Shown here one piece after another: positions 1 through 12,932 of a stretch of 64,000 nucleotides of DNA. Below the pieces are notes generated by a model, which saw only the letters and a program-made list of their open reading frames with translations, was not told where the DNA came from and did no database searches. A program made the position numbers and the translations under genes. The stretch spans positions 1,481,001-1,545,000 of the forward strand of contig CP166131.1 in the NCBI GenBank assembly GCA_041228345.1, read 5' to 3'. Each line of letters opens with the position of its first letter. Position 1 is the stretch's first letter. This stretch comes from Alphaproteobacteria bacterium LSUCC0396. Lineage in GTDB: Bacteria; Pseudomonadota; Alphaproteobacteria; Puniceispirillales; Puniceispirillaceae.

Positions 1-966
1 ATTAACGCCGTTCTGTTTCACGGTAATGATTTAGGCATGATTAGCGAACGCGCAAAGCAATTTGCCGCCTTATTTAGCGATAATTTGGACGATGTATTTT
101 CGGTAACGCGGCTAAGCGGCGATATGTTATCTGGCGAGGTAGGCTTAATTGCTGATTCGGCCGCCGCCATTCCGGCCTTTGGTGATCGCCGGCTTGTTCT
201 CGTTAAGGGTCGCGGTACCGAATTGCTAGAAGCCGCTAAACTGGCACTGGCAAAACCGTTACCCAATACCATGATCATAATCGAAGCAAGCGACACAACA
301 ACGAAACACGCGATTGTTAAATTATTCGAAACCAGCAAAACCGCTGCATCAATTGGCTGTTATGCTGATGGTGTCGGTGATATTTGTGAGTTAGCCAACA
401 AAATTTTTGCCGCCGACAACGTCACTGCAAGCCGTGATGCGTTTGATATCATCGCCGGGCGGTTGGGCAGTGACCGGGCTTCATCACGCAGTGAAATTGA
501 AAAACTGGCTTTAATGGCAGGGCCGGGCGGGCGGCTTGAGGCTGAGGATGTACAGATCGCGCTTGGCGATAGTGCGCTTCTTGCTATTGATGATATTGCC
601 GATGCGCTGGCTAGTGGCGCCGTTGCCCGGCTGCAACAGGCGCTGCAAAAAGCCTGGTATGAAGATACCAATGCCGTGATGATCATTCGCGGTTGCCAAA
701 CCTATTTTCGGCAATTGGGTCTTGCCGGCTATGCGATGACAAATGGTCAATCAGCGCAAAATGCCTTGCGCAGTCTGCGCCCACCGCCGCATTTCAAATT
801 ACAGCACCGGTTACAGGCGCATCTTCGGCGCTGGCGACCGCATCTGGCAATGGAAATGGTCAACCGGTTACAAGATATTGAATTACAACTGAAATCTGGC
901 AGAATTGACGATCAACTTTGCACCGCGCAAAGCCTTTTAGGGATTTGCCTTCGCGCGCCGCGCTAG
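1..966 (+). CDS. holA: DNA polymerase III subunit delta, 5'-truncated by the window
   Basis: This is the delta subunit of the clamp loader, which opens the beta sliding clamp for loading on primed DNA. The frame is open from base 1 and begins with residues resembling the family N-terminus (VLFHGNDLG), so the ATG at 37 is internal and the true start lies upstream of the window. About 321 residues are visible, ending at a TAG at 964-966. The C-terminal helical region is intact. It converges on parB with a 4-bp overlap of the two 3' ends. holA beside parAB is a usual alphaproteobacterial arrangement. Identification rests on overall sequence resemblance and context. Confidence 0.9.
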   Translation: MNAVLFHGNDLGMISERAKQFAALFSDNLDDVFSVTRLSGDMLSGEVGLIADSAAAIPAFGDRRLVLVKGRGTELLEAAKLALAKPLPNTMIIIEASDTTTKHAIVKLFETSKTAASIGCYADGVGDICELANKIFAADNVTASRDAFDIIAGRLGSDRASSRSEIEKLALMAGPGGRLEAEDVQIALGDSALLAIDDIADALASGAVARLQQALQKAWYEDTNAVMIIRGCQTYFRQLGLAGYAMTNGQSAQNALRSLRPPPHFKLQHRLQAHLRRWRPHLAMEMVNRLQDIELQLKSGRIDDQLCTAQSLLGICLRAPR

Positions 967-1916
967 CGTATACCCAACTTTGCCAGCAAATTGGTCATCT
1001 GCTCTAGTGACTGACAATCAATCACCAACTTGCCGCGCTCCTTGGCTTCATCCCAGTCAATCTGAAATGCCAGACCCAGCTTATCAGCTGCTTGGCGTTC
1101 CAGTGCTTTGATATCTGCCGATTTCTCTGGCTTAGCCGCTTTTTTGCCTGTCTTAACCCGATCTTGTTTGGCGAGCATTTCGGCCTGACGTGCCGACAGG
1201 CCTTTCGCAACAATCACCCTAGCAAGCGCGTCAGCATCGCCATGACCGATTAGCGGCCGCGCCTGTCCCATCGTGATTTTCCGGTCAAGAAGCAACGTCT
1301 GAACCGACGGCGGTAGTAATAAAAGCCGTAAGAGATTCGCAATGTGGCTTCTTGATTTACCAATAATTTCAGATACTTGTTCTTGTGTATAGCGGTTGGT
1401 TTCTAACAGTTTCTGATAGCCTTGCGCTTCTTCAATAACGCTAAGATCGCTTCGCTGAATATTTTCAATCAGCGCAATTTCATAACATTCAGCCTCGGTC
1501 AGGTCGCGAATAATCGCCGGAACCTGATGTATTTTCGCCAATTGCGCCGCACGCCAACGGCGTTCACCAGCAACAAGTTGATAGCGGCTTGGTTTTTCCG
1601 GGTTTGGGCGCAATAGAATTGGCTGAACAATACCTTTTTGCCGGATCGACGCCGCCAAATCATTCAGACCGTCCTTGTCAAACTGTCGACGCGGCTGCCA
1701 GGGGCCAACATTAATCCATTCGATCGGAATTTCCTGAAAGCCTGCTGATGGCGCGAGGGGCGCTGCAGCGGTTGATGCGTTACCATCACGTATAGCCGCC
1801 GCGCCTGTTGCCGCGGCAATGCCGCGATCACCTAACAGTGATGACAGCCCGCGCCCAAGCCCACGATTGGCGGTTTTCTTTGGCGATGCGGTGCCCGACG
1901 AGGTTTTTGGTGGCAT
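963..1916 (-). CDS. parB: Chromosome-partitioning protein ParB
   Basis: ParB is the centromere-binding CTPase clamp that loads at parS and spreads along DNA for origin segregation. The 317-residue protein has an N-terminal basic tail with a ParA-interaction-like stretch RGLGRGLSSLL (18-28). The ParB/Srx nucleotide-binding domain follows (about 62-155), with GERRWRA at 117-123 and ENIQR at 151-155. A helix-turn-helix lies around 178-200 and a C-terminal dimerisation domain follows. Its ATG overlaps the parA stop by one base (TAATG), implying translational coupling. Two perfect parS sites occur in the window, at 3308 and 6925. Confidence 0.97.
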   Translation of the reverse strand: MPPKTSSGTASPKKTANRGLGRGLSSLLGDRGIAAATGAAAIRDGNASTAAAPLAPSAGFQEIPIEWINVGPWQPRRQFDKDGLNDLAASIRQKGIVQPILLRPNPEKPSRYQLVAGERRWRAAQLAKIHQVPAIIRDLTEAECYEIALIENIQRSDLSVIEEAQGYQKLLETNRYTQEQVSEIIGKSRSHIANLLRLLLLPPSVQTLLLDRKITMGQARPLIGHGDADALARVIVAKGLSARQAEMLAKQDRVKTGKKAAKPEKSADIKALERQAADKLGLAFQIDWDEAKERGKLVIDCQSLEQMTNLLAKLGIR

Positions 1917-2755: not shown

Positions 2756-3355
2756 TTAGCGGCTATTTTTAAGTTCTAGAACAACACCAGTTGGGCCAGA
2801 TAGGCTTGGGTGCGTTGTTGCGTCCATAGTGGAATAAGTTTGCAAATTGGTCAATTCATCTTGCACGGCAGCGCCTTTCAAAAACAGGCAGACACTTTTG
2901 GGACTAAGTTGATTTTCAATGAGTTTCAATAGTTTAGGGACAGGAGCTAAGGCTCGCGCTGTAATAACATCAGGGAAAAGCTGCGGCAGGGTTTCGATCC
3001 GCTGATTATGAACTTTGGCGGGCAAGTCCAATTCGCGGATCACCATCGACAAAAATACCGCCTTGCGCTGATCTGATTCGACAAGATCAACCGTAACGCC
3101 CCCCATAATCGCCAGAACGAGGCCGGGAAACCCAGCGCCACTGCCAACATCCATGATATTTTTGGTCTGTGGCGGGTAAAATGCCGCGAGCTGTCCAGAA
3201 TCCAGAATATGACGCTGCCAAGCCTCGGCGAGGGTGCTGTTCGCGACAAGATTGATCCGCGCTTGCCATTTTTCCAATAATGTCAGATAGGCACGAAATT
3301 TATCAATTGTTTCACGTGAAACATTCAGCAATCGGGCAACATCATCCGGCGTCAC
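2756..3355 (-). CDS. rsmG: 16S rRNA (guanine(527)-N7)-methyltransferase RsmG (GidB)
   Basis: RsmG is a SAM-dependent methyltransferase for G527 of 16S rRNA. The 199-residue protein has the glycine-rich SAM loop [10 protein letters not shown] at 69-78. Its start overlaps the mnmG stop by 4 bp (ATGA), and mnmG-rsmG-parA-parB forms one leftward run. Residues 11-16 (NVSRET) are encoded by a perfect parS palindrome (3308-3323), so this stretch is both coding and a ParB site. The protein is otherwise of ordinary length with no visible defect. Confidence 0.96.
3308..3323. promoter_or_regulatory. parS centromere site inside rsmG
   Basis: TGTTTCACGTGAAACA is a perfect 16-bp palindrome matching the widely conserved chromosomal parS consensus. 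It lies within codons 11-16 of rsmG, about 7.1 kb from the proposed oriC and 1.4 kb from parB. That parS recruits ParB is established for the family. Use of this particular copy is inferred. Confidence 0.93.
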
Positions 3356-6775: not shown

Positions 6776-7309
6776 ATGCCCCAGATCAACGGCGCACTTG
6801 ACCAGTTATTTTCGTCAAAAATCCAGACCGACTTTGGCTGGCTTCGACCCATTAGCAATGGCCATAGCCTCATCCGTCTCGATTGGAATCAAACTGGCTG
6901 GGACCAGCCTTGCCATGCTGACGATGTTTCACGTGAAACAATTGCCCAGCTTGCGGCCTTTTTCGCTGGACGCCTGCAGCAGTTCACCGTGCCCTTAGAC
7001 CCCGTCGGAAAATCGAAAGCCGGACGTTATTGGCTCGATATTATGGCCAAAATCCCCTATGGGACGGTGATGAGTTATGGTGAATTTGCCAATTTTGCCG
7101 GCAAATCCGGTGCCGCCCGTGCCGCCGGGTCATCATGTGCGAGCAACCCAATACCAATTATCTATCCATGCCACCGTGTGGTGCGGGCAGATGGCTCATT
7201 GGGTAATTACGGCGGGGGTAGTGACAATCACCCGGCACATCAGGATAATCTAGCGCGCAAAGCCGCCTTATTGGCGCTCGAGACTGCCAGTAAATCGGCT
7301 GCTGCATAA
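6776..7309 (+). CDS. ogt: Methylated-DNA--[protein]-cysteine S-methyltransferase
   Basis: This protein repairs O6-alkylguanine by irreversible alkyl transfer to an active cysteine. The 177-residue form has the active-site motif PCHRVV near residues 120-125, preceded by IPYGTVMSYGEFA of the DNA-binding wing. The ATG at 6776 is chosen because AAGGAG (6765-6770) lies 5 bases upstream. An in-frame ATG at 6704 has no such site. The coding sequence contains a perfect parS site, encoding DVSRET. It is one of the few plus-strand genes left of oriC. The short N-terminal domain is typical of Ogt/MGMT. Confidence 0.92.
   Translation: MPQINGALDQLFSSKIQTDFGWLRPISNGHSLIRLDWNQTGWDQPCHADDVSRETIAQLAAFFAGRLQQFTVPLDPVGKSKAGRYWLDIMAKIPYGTVMSYGEFANFAGKSGAARAAGSSCASNPIPIIYPCHRVVRADGSLGNYGGGSDNHPAHQDNLARKAALLALETASKSAAA
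6925..6940. promoter_or_regulatory. parS centromere site inside ogt
   Basis: This is a second perfect copy of the 16-bp parS palindrome TGTTTCACGTGAAACA. It lies in the ogt reading frame (encoding VSRET) about 3.5 kb left of oriC. Both copies in the window are in coding sequence and are read as the same VSRET peptide. Confidence 0.93.
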
Positions 7310-8916: not shown

Positions 8917-9345
8917 TCAAAGCGGTTTGGCAACAGCCATAACAACAATGATAATCATCAATATTGTCGGTACTTCATTCCAAATGCGATAGGCCTTTGA
9001 TGATAATGGTTTTTCATCATTTTCTAATAAACGCCGCATTTTCGAAAATTTACCATGAACCCCCGCCATTAATAGCACAGCCGCCAGTTTTACATGGAAC
9101 CAAGGCTCACTAAAAAGACTTGGATACAGCGCGAGCATCCATAGGCCAAAAATAAAGCTAGCAATCATTGCCGGCGTCATGATCGCTTTTAACAGCCGCC
9201 GTTCCATCACCTTGAAGGTTTCCGCCTGCACAGATCCGGTTTGGGCATCAGCATGGTAAACAAACAGCCGCGGCAGATATAAAAGCCCAACCATCCATGA
9301 AATTACCGAGATAATATGGAGAGATTTGATAATTTCATAGCTCAT
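8917..9345 (-). CDS. hemJ: Protoporphyrinogen IX oxidase HemJ
   Basis: HemJ is the small membrane oxidase converting protoporphyrinogen IX to protoporphyrin IX, a late heme step, in bacteria lacking HemG/HemY. The 142-residue protein has about four hydrophobic segments (near 5-25, 58-75, 82-100 and 120-140). It carries the family features SLHIIS with His10, YHADA, and the C-terminal WNEVPTILMI. Its start is 9 bp from the hemE stop, so it is probably in an operon with hemE, and pathway context supports the call. Confidence 0.92.
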   Translation of the reverse strand: MSYEIIKSLHIISVISWMVGLLYLPRLFVYHADAQTGSVQAETFKVMERRLLKAIMTPAMIASFIFGLWMLALYPSLFSEPWFHVKLAAVLLMAGVHGKFSKMRRLLENDEKPLSSKAYRIWNEVPTILMIIIVVMAVAKPL

Positions 9346-9354
9346 TGCTCTGTC

Positions 9355-10383
9355 CTAACGATTCCGGATGTGATCAATCATTTTTTGCACATTTTCCACC
9401 GGTGTTGGTGGGGTAATTCCATGGCCGAGATTAAAGATATGTGGACGATCATGGAAAGCGTCAAGGATATGGTCAATATCGCGGAACATTTCCGGCCCTG
9501 CATTTAATAGGCTTAAGGGGTCAAGGTTGCCTTGTACTGGCATATTGGCTGGCAGATTTTTTGCCGCCCACAATGGATCAACCCCATGATCCAGCCCAAC
9601 AGCATCAACCCCGCTTTCCGCCGCATACCGAAGTAACCCTTCACCAATGCCCTTTGGAAAGCCGATTATGGGCTGGTTATGACCATGTGCCCGCACGCCT
9701 TCGACAATTGCGCGCGCCGGTCTTATCACCAACCAGTCGCGTTGTGCAGCTGGTACCGCGCTTGCCCAGCTGTCAAACAGCATAAGAGCCTCAGCCCCGG
9801 CTTTTGCCTGTAATGACAGGAACGATATTGTGCCATCGACCAATATAGATATGAGGCCGTCTAATGATTTCGCCTCTTGCCATGCCCATTGCCGCGCCTT
9901 TGGGAAATCACGAGAACTAACCCCTTCGGCCATATAGGTGATTAATGTCCAAGGGGCGCCAGCAAACCCAATAAGCGCCGTCTCATCCGGCAGGGCCGCT
10001 TTAGTCAGATTAAGGGCTTTACCAACGGGCGCTAGCTTATCATCCAACCCCTCTAGACACGACGCATTGACATCATCAGGCTTATCCATTGCATCAAGCA
10101 AAGGTCCAACGCCGGTTTTAAACCTTACATTGCGCTGCATCGCCCACGGGATCATCAGAATATCTGAAAATATAATCGCCGCATCGAACCCATAACGAGC
10201 AATAGGCTGCAAGGTGACAGCTGATGCTTGTTCAGGATTTAAACAAAACGAAATAAAGTCCTTTTGGCTGGCACGGACATTCCGATATTCTTCAAGATAG
10301 CGTCCAGCTTGACGCATCATCCAGATCGGAGTCTTGGCTGATTTAGCGCCATGTAATGTGGAAAGGAATAGCTTATCGGTCAT
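9355..10383 (-). CDS. hemE: Uroporphyrinogen decarboxylase HemE
   Basis: HemE decarboxylates the four acetate side chains of uroporphyrinogen III to give coproporphyrinogen III. The chosen start (ATG at 10383) gives 342 residues opening with MTDKLFLSTL. The substrate-binding stretch MRQAGRYLEEYR follows. An in-frame ATG 15 bases upstream lacks a ribosome site, whereas AGAG precedes the chosen one. hemE marks one side of oriC in Caulobacter and Rickettsia, and here too the next 400 bp carry DnaA boxes. Confidence 0.96.
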   Translation of the reverse strand: MTDKLFLSTLHGAKSAKTPIWMMRQAGRYLEEYRNVRASQKDFISFCLNPEQASAVTLQPIARYGFDAAIIFSDILMIPWAMQRNVRFKTGVGPLLDAMDKPDDVNASCLEGLDDKLAPVGKALNLTKAALPDETALIGFAGAPWTLITYMAEGVSSRDFPKARQWAWQEAKSLDGLISILVDGTISFLSLQAKAGAEALMLFDSWASAVPAAQRDWLVIRPARAIVEGVRAHGHNQPIIGFPKGIGEGLLRYAAESGVDAVGLDHGVDPLWAAKNLPANMPVQGNLDPLSLLNAGPEMFRDIDHILDAFHDRPHIFNLGHGITPPTPVENVQKMIDHIRNR

Positions 10384-10438
10384 TCTGTTCTCTAACATTA
10401 TATATATATTAAAAAAAGGTAGTTGTTTTCGTAGTGCC

Positions 10439-10447
10439 TGTGGATAA
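10439..10447 (-). promoter_or_regulatory. DnaA box (perfect)
   Basis: TGTGGATAA on the plus strand is the exact reverse complement of the consensus TTATCCACA. Confidence 0.85.
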
Positions 10448-10472
10448 CCACAAATATGATGTTATTCAAATA

Positions 10473-10481
10473 TTATCCACA
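10473..10481 (+). promoter_or_regulatory. DnaA box (perfect)
   Basis: TTATCCACA matches the consensus exactly. It faces the box at 10439 in inverted orientation. Confidence 0.85.
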
Positions 10482-10495
10482 AATTTTTCCCGATA

Positions 10496-10504
10496 TGTGG
10501 ATAG
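10496..10504 (-). promoter_or_regulatory. DnaA box (one mismatch)
   Basis: TGTGGATAG is the reverse complement of CTATCCACA, one base from consensus, 14 bp beyond the preceding box. Confidence 0.7.
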
Positions 10505-10517
10505 ATTTTTGGGTATC

Positions 10518-10588
10518 TTTTCAACAGCTTTCACTCTTATCCCAGAACATCCCACTTTGAGATGGATAAATAATCCACCTGTTGAAAA
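10518..10588. repeat. Interrupted dyad symmetry within oriC
   Basis: The outer arms are TTTTCAACAG (10518-10527) and CTGTTGAAAA (10579-10588), perfect inverted repeats. Each is separated by exactly 9 bp from inner arms TTATCC (10537-10542) and GGATAA (10564-10569). The whole is symmetric about position 10553. The inner arms are DnaA-box cores. What the outer arms bind is unknown. Confidence 0.8.
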
Positions 10589-10698
10589 ATACCGCGTGAT
10601 TGTGCGTAACTAGCGTTCTTGCGCTGTCAGTTAAAAATAATCCCCAGTGACCGATATCTTGCGCACAGTCTTATCCATTATGATTAGCTGTGAAAATG

Positions 10699-10726
10699 GC
10701 CCCAATATCGTCGCCCCAATATCGTC
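10699..10726. repeat. 14-bp perfect tandem duplication at the right edge of oriC
   Basis: GCCCCAATATCGTC occurs twice in direct tandem (10699-10712 and 10713-10726), about 75 bp before ppsR. Confidence 0.9.
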
Positions 10727-10799
10727 AATAATCGACAAGCGCCAGCATTGATGAAACGAGATGACAAAACGGCGTTTTCTAGCTACATCTTGTCAGACG

Positions 10800-11657
10800 A
10801 TGCCAAACCAAACGCTACATATCCACCTTGTCTCAGACTCGACCGGTGAAACCGTGCATCAGGTGGCGCGCGCGTGTCTTGCGCAGTTTGCCGGCGTTAA
10901 AACGGTTGAGCATGTCTGGACGCTGGTGCGGACAACGGCGCATCTTCAGGCGCTATTTGACGGGCTTGATCGTTACCCGGGCATTTTGCTGATGAGCATC
11001 ATTGATCAGGAGCTGCGCGCCAAGATTGATAAAACTTGCCACGATAAAGGCGTTCCGGCCGTTTCAGTGCTTGATCCGGTGGTTAATCTTTTAACGACAG
11101 TGCTTGGTCAGTCCATGACAAATTTGCCCGGTGGACAGCGCCGGCTTGATACAGCTTATTTTGCACGTATGGCAGCGGTTGATTTTGCTGTTAGTCATGA
11201 TGACGGCATGAATATGAGCAATCTGAAAACCGCTGATATGTTGATCGTCGGCATATCGCGTACCTCAAAAACGCCAACGTCAATGTATCTGGCGCATCGT
11301 GGCTATAAAGTTGCAAATTATGCGTTGGTTCCGCAGGTGCCATTTCCACAGCATTATCTAGATGGGCTGAATATCTTTGTCGTTGGCTTAACGAATGATC
11401 CAAAACGGCTTAGCCAAATTCGCCGTACCCGACAGGTGGCGATGCAGGACACAAAGAATGAAGATTATGCAAATATCGATCAGATCACTGAAGAAGTGCG
11501 CAATGCGCGGCGGCTTTTTGCCAGTAATAAATGGCCGGTAATTGATGTAACCCGCCGATCAGTCGAGGAAACAGCTGCGGCAATTTTGCAATATTATACG
11601 CAATGGCAAGAAACCCAATCACCCGAGCCTCAATCACCCGAGTCTGGTCATGAGTAA
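10800..11657 (+). CDS. ppsR: Pyruvate,phosphate dikinase / PEP synthase regulatory protein (DUF299, PpsR family)
   Basis: This is a bifunctional ADP-dependent kinase / Pi-dependent phosphorylase that switches PEP synthase or PPDK off and on. From ATG 10800 it has 285 residues, opening with the family stretch HIHLVSDSTGET. The P-loop GISRTSKTPTS lies in the second half. An in-frame ATG at 10761 would add 13 residues without family support, and neither start has a strong ribosome site. The C-terminus ends in a duplicated QSPE peptide from a 15-bp DNA duplication and overlaps maf by 8 bp. This family (RP001) flanks oriC in other alphaproteobacteria. Confidence 0.92.
   Translation: MPNQTLHIHLVSDSTGETVHQVARACLAQFAGVKTVEHVWTLVRTTAHLQALFDGLDRYPGILLMSIIDQELRAKIDKTCHDKGVPAVSVLDPVVNLLTTVLGQSMTNLPGGQRRLDTAYFARMAAVDFAVSHDDGMNMSNLKTADMLIVGISRTSKTPTSMYLAHRGYKVANYALVPQVPFPQHYLDGLNIFVVGLTNDPKRLSQIRRTRQVAMQDTKNEDYANIDQITEEVRNARRLFASNKWPVIDVTRRSVEETAAAILQYYTQWQETQSPEPQSPESGHE
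11616..11645. repeat. 15-bp tandem duplication at the ppsR 3' end
   Basis: CAATCACCCGAGCCT is followed directly by CAATCACCCGAGTCT (one difference). It keeps frame and encodes a repeated QSPE tail. Confidence 0.85.
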
Positions 11658-12318
11658 AGCGCCCTTTGTAACGCTGGCGGGCGGCGATCTTGTTCTGGCA
11701 TCGGCAAGCGCAATACGCGCCAAAATTCTAGCCGATGCCGGCATTGGCTTTCGCACCTATCCAGTGGCAATTGATGAAGAGGCGGTGCGCGCTGCTGGCA
11801 TGGCCGAGGATGTGCCAGCGGGTGATATCGCCGTAATGCTGGCCGAAATAAAAGCCGCCGCCGCGGTTCAGCGTCTGGCAATAGAGAACGACCTACCAAA
11901 ATCTTATATTCTTGGCTGTGATCAAATCTTATCCTGCGAGGGGTCGATTTATGGAAAACCCGAAAACCGCGCTTTGGCAAAGGCACAGCTTAGCGCCTTA
12001 TCGGGTAAAACCCATCATTTGTTAAGTGCGGCAGTTTTATTTCACCGGGGGGCGCGTATTTGGCATCATCTATCTGTCGCGAAAATTACCATGCGCACTC
12101 TCGATGAATCCTTTATTGACGCGTATCTCGACCAGCTTGGGCCAGCGGCGTTTACATCACCTGCAAGTTATCAGATCGAGGGACTCGGTGCGCAGCTTTT
12201 GGCGCGGATCGAGGGTTGTCATTATGCGATTTTAGGGCTGCCGCTACTCGAATTACTGGGTATTTTGCGGCAACATGGACTGAAACCCCAAACGCAAAGT
12301 GAAGCCGTCAGCAGATGA
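11650..12318 (+). CDS. maf: Maf family nucleotide pyrophosphatase
   Basis: Maf proteins hydrolyse noncanonical or bulk nucleoside triphosphates to monophosphates and are linked to septum inhibition. The 222-residue protein has the N-terminal LVLASASA motif (residues about 16-23) and GCDQILSCEG with the catalytic-region aspartate. The usual Pro-Arg-Arg after ASAS reads Ala-Ile-Arg here, retaining one arginine. It overlaps ppsR by 8 bp and coaE by 4 bp. In many alphaproteobacteria aroE lies between maf and coaE, but it does not here. The exact substrate cannot be told from sequence. Confidence 0.9.
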   Translation: MSKAPFVTLAGGDLVLASASAIRAKILADAGIGFRTYPVAIDEEAVRAAGMAEDVPAGDIAVMLAEIKAAAAVQRLAIENDLPKSYILGCDQILSCEGSIYGKPENRALAKAQLSALSGKTHHLLSAAVLFHRGARIWHHLSVAKITMRTLDESFIDAYLDQLGPAAFTSPASYQIEGLGAQLLARIEGCHYAILGLPLLELLGILRQHGLKPQTQSEAVSR

Positions 12319-12932
12319 AAATCATCGGGCTAACAGGATCAATTGCGGCTGGGAAATCAACGGTCGCTGGATGGGTTCGCGACCTTGGCATTGCCATTCA
12401 TGACGCTGATGCGGCAGTGCATGAATTGCTGGGGCCGGATGGTGCTGCGGTGGCTGATATCATTGGTGTTTTTGGGGCTGATACTGGCAGTATTGCAATG
12501 GGGATAGACCGGCAGGCGCTGGGTAATTTGGTGTTTGCCAACCCGCCGCGGCGCAAACAGCTTGAGGCGATTCTTCACCCTATGGTGCGCCAGCACCGTG
12601 ACGCATTTATCCATCGGCATAGGGCAGCGGGCGCACCAGCTATTCTGTTGGATGTGCCGCTATTGTTTGAGACCGGCGGTGAGGCGATCTGTGATTATGT
12701 TATTGTGGTGTATGCAAGCACCGCAACCATCACCCAACGCGCATTGAGCCGCACCGGCATGACCGCGGCCAAGCTAGAGGCCATTCTGGCCTCGCAAATG
12801 CCGGTTGCCGAGAAAAAACAGCGCGCTGATCTATTGCTTGATACAGACCTTGATCAAGATGCCACAAGACAAGATTTAATCAGGTGGCTTTCGGCCATTG
12901 ATGTGCCTATGGTTGAGGCGGGCAAATCGTGA
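12315..12932 (+). CDS. coaE: Dephospho-CoA kinase
   Basis: CoaE phosphorylates the 3'-hydroxyl of dephospho-CoA in the last step of coenzyme A synthesis. The 205-residue protein has the P-loop GLTGSIAAGKST (5-16). A lid/substrate region DVPLLFETGG follows near 113-122. Length is normal. It starts with an ATGA overlap with maf and precedes dnaQ by 26 bp. It ends on TGA, showing that TGA is an ordinary stop codon in this genome. Confidence 0.96.
   Translation: MKIIGLTGSIAAGKSTVAGWVRDLGIAIHDADAAVHELLGPDGAAVADIIGVFGADTGSIAMGIDRQALGNLVFANPPRRKQLEAILHPMVRQHRDAFIHRHRAAGAPAILLDVPLLFETGGEAICDYVIVVYASTATITQRALSRTGMTAAKLEAILASQMPVAEKKQRADLLLDTDLDQDATRQDLIRWLSAIDVPMVEAGKS

Follow-up and report, generated by a model that had tools for sequence, protein, structure and literature searches.

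The window analysed here, by which we mean the whole stretch of 64,000 nucleotides, covers positions 1,481,001 to 1,545,000 of a complete chromosome of 2,592,803 bp, and the named relatives among the matches are Candidatus Puniceispirillum and SAR116. From the left, Pfam matches and open reading frames give the gene order parB, a ParA-like gene, gidB/mnmG/mnmE-like genes, rho, hemJ, hemE, an intergenic spacer, ppsR, maf, coaE, and a dnaQ-like exonuclease gene. The ParA-like and gidB/mnmG/mnmE-like names were assigned by eye from the translations of the open reading frames, and the UPF0093 gene to the left of hemE is presumably hemJ. The switch in gene orientation that the first-pass annotation had described at the spacer is confirmed by open reading frames and Pfam, with hemE on the minus strand and ppsR diverging from it on the plus strand. 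With a ppsR start at 10761, the right end of the spacer is 10760; with the alternative start, an in-frame ATG at 10800, it is 10799, and that ATG is close to where most homologues outside the genus start aligning with ppsR. No RNA family reached its gathering threshold in 9000–12500, and dnaA lies at 1,566,734, 75 kb from the spacer. The features of the locus are as follows:

963..1916, minus strand: parB (PF02195, PF17762, PF23552)
3308..3323: parS, perfect palindrome (whole-genome search, up to 2 mismatches)
6925..6940: parS, perfect palindrome (same search)
9355..10383, minus strand: hemE, left flank (PF01208, E 7e-100)
10384..10760: spacer between hemE (minus) and ppsR (plus), very probably oriC (divergent pair, skew change)
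10393..10419: AT-rich tract, candidate DNA-unwinding element (A+T; AT-rich place in the 20-spacer alignment)
10420..10434, plus strand: TAG-TTG-TTT-TCG-TAG, candidate trio-like single-stranded DnaA-binding element (G..G periodicity)
10439..10447, minus strand: DnaA box p1, TTATCCACA, the anchor box beside the TNG tract (position identity 0.84)
10473..10481, plus strand: DnaA box p2, TTATCCACA (position identity 0.84)
10496..10504, minus strand: near-perfect DnaA box, CTATCCACA (one mismatch; mean identity 0.43)
10571..10579, plus strand: weak DnaA-box-like site at a conserved position, TAATCCACC (mean identity 0.82)
10601..10609, minus strand: weak DnaA-box-like site, TGTGCGTAA on the plus strand (2 mismatches)
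10640..10646, plus strand: ATCCCCA, a Caulobacter-type W-box (TCCCCA) (alignment conservation, hemE spacing)
10761..11657, plus strand: ppsR (kinase/pyrophosphorylase), right flank (PF03618, E 2e-88; NF003742)

The first-pass annotation had placed oriC between hemE and ppsR, and had proposed GC skew as a check, with a minimum clearly elsewhere counting against the placement. Within the window, skew in 2-kb steps is negative in the five steps up to 10 kb, and about zero at 10–12 kb; beyond 12 kb, 23 of 26 steps are positive. Twenty 10-kb samples spread around the chromosome gave negative values in nine of ten on the left arm (259–1,436 kb; the one departure, at 1,167 kb, is +0.006) and positive values in all ten on the right arm, which were taken from 1,556 kb onwards, past the contig ends, as far as 140 kb. 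The turn is not sharp, since skew stays close to zero over ~55 kb to the left of the window in five samples at 1,426–1,481 kb, of which the final one (8 kb) stands at +0.02. The sign nevertheless changes inside the window, which favours oriC here. At 150–218 kb, the values of five samples range from −0.04 to +0.03, and skew becomes clearly negative (−0.12) at 228,100, where a palindromic dif-like 28-mer starts. This site is almost opposite the spacer (arms of 1.26 and 1.33 Mb); it is a candidate, because the palindromic pattern was searched in seven stretches around the expected terminus only. An alphaproteobacterial dif consensus had no match at 3 mismatches, and a shortened form gave scattered matches only. 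The two parS sites are the only ones found genome-wide at up to 2 mismatches, and they lie 3.5 and 7 kb from the spacer.

Gene order is widely kept, with hemE divergent from ppsR around the spacer in 123 of 137 loci (47 from the SAR116 order and 90 from the rest of the class); the exceptions are 13 loci without hemE in the fetched stretch and one with a partial hemE. The median spacer length in the 123 loci is 403 bp, with quartiles of 364 and 463. The skew change with a terminus opposite, the cluster of DnaA boxes beside AT-rich DNA, and the divergent hemE/ppsR (RP001) flanks are what would be looked for in a bacterial oriC and, in the case of the flanks, in an alphaproteobacterial origin of the hemE type. 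Skew, the dif-like site, parS, and synteny together support the first-pass placement, and we put the probability that the hemE/ppsR spacer is the chromosomal oriC at roughly 93%. The location, skew, synteny, and parS sites, as well as the site positions, W-site conservation, and TNG periodicity described below, are properties of the sequence itself. The location is ordinary, as expected for alphaproteobacteria, in which oriC between hemE and ppsR is the expected arrangement.

The comparative counts draw on two samples. In the class, ppsR was matched in 134 of 192 genomes, of which 90 were examined (the best 30 loci and the next 60 by score); no hemE was found in 10 of the 90, leaving 80 counted spacers. 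In the order, 47 of 61 genomes had ppsR, and 30 loci, 16 of the 17 others, and strain L057 were used; four were dropped and L057 was omitted from the counts, which gives 42 spacers. Loci L058–L064 were left out of the counts, most of them looking like genomes already represented. A 20-row alignment covers the nearest genera, with L029, L031, and L040 omitted for want of a usable hemE start.

Two perfect DnaA boxes and one near-perfect box had been reported, and all three are present: TTATCCACA at 10439–10447 (minus) and 10473–10481 (plus), and a one-mismatch box at 10496–10504 (minus). Several TTATCC cores had been reported with them, and TTATCC/GGATAA cores start at 10537, 10564, and 10671. 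The weight placed on perfect boxes did not hold up, as strain L057, although 99% identical, already departs from the perfect word at the 10439 box, where its plus strand reads TGTGTGTAA. Among the 20 alignment rows, a perfect box occupies the p1 place in two and the p2 place in five. The proposed inverted pair at 10439/10473 therefore survives as two kept positions (mean identity 0.84 each) that are rarely perfect boxes. Overall identity is 0.60 in the 19 rows without L057, compared with 0.84 at p1, 0.84 at p2, and 0.43 at the 10496 box; this last box is identical in L057, is represented in L028 by a different one-mismatch box one base off, and is absent from the other rows. Among the weaker sites of the 20-spacer alignment, the 10571 place reads TTATCCAC[TA] in several relatives, and the 10601 place holds a perfect box in L038 and L044. 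Box positions thus persist in the SAR116 alignment while their sequences drift, and this fast turnover singles out no strong box as essential.

Genome-wide, the perfect word TTATCCACA is not enriched, since it occurs at 13 places and the backward-read control at 17. The Poisson P of at least two perfect boxes falling in one given 377-bp stretch is ~2e-6, a value that applies to that single stretch and carries no correction for how many stretches there are. A perfect box is present in 22 of 42 SAR116-order spacers and 29 of 80 other class spacers, and in none (0/42 and 0/80) of the adjacent hemE-coding stretches of equal length. DnaA-box words head the list of words enriched in the spacers; TCCACA, for example, is found in 28 of 42 order spacers (expected 3.6) and 53 of 80 class spacers (expected 6.2).

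Elsewhere in the genome, a second close pair of perfect TTATCCACA boxes lies at 2,200,290 and 2,200,357, 67 bp apart on one strand, within 2,200,290–2,200,755 (L021:3291-3756); the pair is directly upstream of an open reading frame of 118 amino acids. The N-terminus of its product, QLSLDL, closely resembles QLSLPL, the hexapeptide by which E. coli Hda binds the clamp (PMC3836487). The gene occurs in 11 of 15 genomes of the genus, some of which are incomplete, and the upstream pair accompanies it in 11 of 11: the first box is perfect in all, and the second, 66–67 bp on, is perfect in eight and has one mismatch in three, a degree of conservation above that of the oriC boxes. The pair is absent at the more distant homologues L106–L108, and nothing in Pfam (E up to 0.001), in NCBIfam, or in PDB (E up to 1) matches the protein. 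It may act as a regulator of replication that binds the clamp and is itself under DnaA control. An Hda-like gene is present separately from dnaA at 2,567,286–2,567,924 (L201), with the N-terminal KQLPLEL; an earlier reading of the genome as lacking Hda, taken from a single PF00308 match, was wrong. No DnaA box with up to one mismatch was found at 1,565,500–1,566,900 (L202), upstream of and into dnaA, and simple autoregulation through such a box is therefore not apparent.

The most conserved stretch of the spacer is not a strong box. The Caulobacter W-box word TCCCCA lies at 10641–10646 (one scan lists the site at 10638), and ATCCCC at 10640–10645 is the longest invariant run in the SAR116 alignment, with six columns identical in 20 of 20 spacers. 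Among the 19 rows, 16 of 263 ungapped columns are invariant, and a six-column invariant run was reached in none of 20,000 column permutations, a procedure that ignores relatedness. When the three unaligned spacers of the genus are added, ATCCCC is present in 22 of 23 (L031 and L040 have it and L029 reads ACCCCC), and we therefore call the site near-invariant rather than invariant; the fixed spacing is unaffected. This spacing is to hemE, with 253–266 nt to its start (sd 3.0; 257 nt in the window) compared with 43–129 nt to the start of ppsR (sd 23.4; 20 rows each), which places the W-site with the elements of the hemE side and not with a ppsR promoter. High conservation at 10694–10703 proved to be a gap artefact, the block being absent from most rows. 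Strain L057 lacks 45 bp to the right of the W-site (~10678–10722), including a tandem CCCCAATATCGTC repeat, and this part of the spacer thus seems dispensable.

Across the order, ATCCCCA is found in 28 of 42 spacers and ATCCCC anywhere in 31 of 42. In nine loci (L055, L056, L171, L172, and L176–L180), a canonical-type box takes the place of the W-site at 263–285 nt from hemE, and several spacers have neither there, including the four with the highest A+T content and the least length (L182–L185). Elsewhere in the class, 72 of 80 spacers contain ATCCCC on one strand or the other, compared with 14 of 80 hemE-coding controls, and the place of the word is variable. According to PMC4285127, TCCCCA W-boxes are weak DnaA sites of Caulobacter that bind DnaA very weakly, and such weak binding leaves room for ATCCCC being the site of a regulator other than DnaA. 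We consider this unlikely, as the word is identical to the Caulobacter W-box and the canonical-type box at a similar place in nine loci looks as if strong and weak sites swap. Binding that is cooperative as well as very weak is what marks a W-box of the Caulobacter kind.

The conserved elements could also be read as promoter and leader signals of hemE and ppsR, with the DnaA boxes regulating these genes and no origin present. Divergent promoters must indeed be in the spacer, and the AT tract is immediately upstream of hemE. On the other hand, skew, the dif-like site, and parS all indicate the spacer as the origin, the W-site keeps its distance from hemE ~257 nt away and not from ppsR, and a promoter scan returned one site compared with 1.3 in shuffles; taken as a whole, a purely regulatory spacer is most improbable. 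Within an origin, the AT tract at 10393–10419 may also hold the hemE promoter or leader. The AT-rich tract reported in the first-pass annotation is evident, with 81% A+T in 10384–10420 compared with 60% in the rest of the spacer.

Between this AT-rich DNA and p1 lies a trinucleotide-periodic tract, in the place expected of DnaA-trios. In the window, four of its five triplets are 5'-TNG-3', so that the pattern is imperfect, and it is followed by TGCC and then p1. Most anchored spacers of the class have the order AT-rich DNA, an AAAGG-like word, a C-poor and G/T-rich tract, CC, and the box. The published rule (PMC8287927) asks for a minimum of three 3'-NAN-5' triplets no further than 16 bp from a box, and beside p1, the box tested in the window, the longest such run is 1. 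A count of TAG/TAA-only trios gave nothing clear (1.11 compared with 1.26 shuffled in nine SAR116 loci, and 1.09 compared with 0.80 in 23 class loci), and for this reason a test of periodicity was tried. The anchor was the first C[CT]TGTG near hemE, found in 34 of 80 class spacers (33 distinct) and 19 of 42 SAR116 spacers; some class anchors are probably false, and the lag test uses 17 distinct SAR116 22-mers. G..G pairs at lag 3 number 128 compared with 84.6 shuffled in the class (z 7.2; 33 distinct tracts) and 50 compared with 27.0 in SAR116 (z 6.1; 17 tracts). An excess also appears at distance 6 and none at distances 1, 2, 4, and 5, and the anchor word elsewhere in the same class spacers gave z −1.2 (71 tracts). 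Pooled phase tests were inflated by relatedness in SAR116, and we prefer the lag, control-anchor, and anchor-free tests.

Counts made free of the anchor agree on the strand. In the class, 39 of 80 spacers have a run of at least three TNG on the plus strand (36 of them within the first 170 nt), compared with 3 of 80 on the minus strand and a shuffled mean of 7.7; for at least four TNG, the numbers are 18, 0, and 0.3. In SAR116, runs of at least three are found in 12 of 42 spacers on the plus strand and in none on the minus strand (shuffled 3.0). Beside the anchored box, three-3'-NAN-5' runs are at chance (6/33 compared with 5.7 shuffled in the class; 6/19 compared with 4.9 in SAR116), three-3'-GNT-5' runs are in excess (13/33 compared with 0.4; 3/19 compared with 0.4), and three-3'-GN[TGA]-5' runs are more frequent still (24/33 compared with 9.1; 15/19 compared with 4.0). 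At the middle position of these last runs, the class counts are 34 T, 39 G, and 35 A, and the SAR116 counts are 29 T, 12 G, and 11 A. Anchor-free three-[TA]A[GA] runs occur in 21 of 80 class spacers (shuffled mean 10.9, max 15) and 22 of 42 SAR116 spacers (shuffled 14.7, max 23), with no clear excess of runs of four in the class (3 compared with 1.5). The twofold class excess of [TA]A[GA] implies that adenine-centred triplets are part of the mix.

It is possible that the TNG tract is not read by DnaA at all, and is instead a hemE leader element, the site of another protein, or a period-3 feature of duplex stability, a reading that we hold at somewhat less than even odds. The central adenine is mostly missing, as seen in the chance level of three-3'-NAN-5' runs (6/33 compared with 5.7 shuffled), and the tract is just 37–51 nt from the hemE start codon. 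A TNG run lies within the first 200 nt in 37 class spacers, and in 18 of these the next 40 nt lack a box word (TGTG[GA]/TGTCGA); in the other 19, by contrast, the box word follows at 3–12 nt in 18, which is the place and strand of a DnaA-trio, and the TNG loci are drawn from many families. The DnaA protein itself is relevant here. Asn187 of PDB 8btg, which we take from its numbering to be a B. subtilis DnaA structure, aligns with Tyr254 of the host DnaA. The aligned residue is Tyr in 33, Phe in three, and Asn in two of 38 alphaproteobacterial DnaAs (the best 30 of 189 matching class genomes and eight others), and is Asn in PDB 2z4r and Gln in 1l8q. In B. subtilis, according to PMC10721633, Asn187 contacts the central adenine, and G, T, or U in place of that adenine slowed strand separation while C did not. 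Both genomes with an Asn DnaA (G002 and G011, of the window's genus) keep a TNG tract with a middle T (L038 and L039), which speaks for a tract unrelated to DnaA, and because of these two genomes we treat a link between residue and tract as hypothesis only.

A different unwinding code in alphaproteobacteria may nevertheless be proposed, although tentatively and as the less probable case: DnaA would read 3'-GNT-5' by gripping the G, with any base allowed in the middle because the residue that contacts the central adenine, Asn in Bacillus, is Tyr or Phe in this class; and in the SAR116 origin the tightest constraint on double-stranded DNA would fall on a weak W-type site at fixed distance rather than on the strong boxes.

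Comparison with studied origins places the spacer among several of them. In Caulobacter crescentus, Cori has the hemE-RP001 neighbourhood, as does the host spacer. The two are also alike in combining a few strong boxes with TCCCCA W-boxes (PMC4285127 and PMC4468827). They differ in that the host spacer carries E. coli-type TTATCCACA boxes and, among its sites within one mismatch of TTATCCACA, no G-box TGATCCACA. CtrA sites of the form TTAA-N7-TTAA number zero in the window's spacer, and we therefore rejected Caulobacter-type CtrA control at this origin; the pattern is present in 4 of 42 SAR116-order and 8 of 80 class spacers, and its absence is usual outside Caulobacter (PMC4468827). The IHF consensus was not found in the spacer, and neither GANTC nor GATC occurs in 10384–10760, so that no methylation site of the CcrM or Dam type falls within the origin. 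E. coli oriC likewise has graded TTATCCACA-type boxes beside its unwinding element, in a gene neighbourhood that differs from the host's; the absence of GATC sets the host spacer apart from it. With the basal unwinding system of the Bacillus subtilis type, the spacer shares an AT tract, a trinucleotide tract, a short C-containing spacer, and a box facing the tract, on the same strand, and it is unlike that system in its triplets, which in the host's class are 5'-TNG-3' and take A, T, or G as the central base instead of following 3'-NAN-5', and in having Tyr254 where B. subtilis has Asn187.

By analogy with these systems, initiation at the spacer as oriC would most likely proceed as follows. 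DnaA would occupy a graded array at fixed places, with p1 (minus) and p2 (plus) near hemE and weaker sites in the middle of the spacer, and the near-invariant W-type site ATCCCCA, 257 nt from hemE, would complete the array. From p1, a DnaA filament would extend leftwards over the TNG strand, with the tract as its presumed single-stranded target, after which the AT tract beside hemE would melt and the helicase would be loaded there. The forks would then travel to a terminus near 228 kb. Binding at each site, the direction of the filament, and unwinding at the AT tract are in each case suggested by likeness to better-known origins.

Weak DnaA sites of the W-box type had not been identified outside Caulobacter, according to a 2024 mini-review (PMC10797057), and we found no report of W-boxes outside Caulobacter or of an alphaproteobacterial trio variant in the open-licence literature searched, which consisted mostly of titles and abstract openings. 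Here, the W-box word is the most conserved stretch of the SAR116 alignment and is enriched in origins across the class. PMC8287927 and PMC10721633 propose one unwinding code, with a central adenine in each triplet, as common to most bacteria, and five proteobacterial classes are marked on the tree drawn in the 2021 survey. If the reading of 3'-GNT-5' by DnaA is true, a class that keeps period 3, mostly without adenine and with an altered DnaA contact residue, would be a test of how universal that code is.
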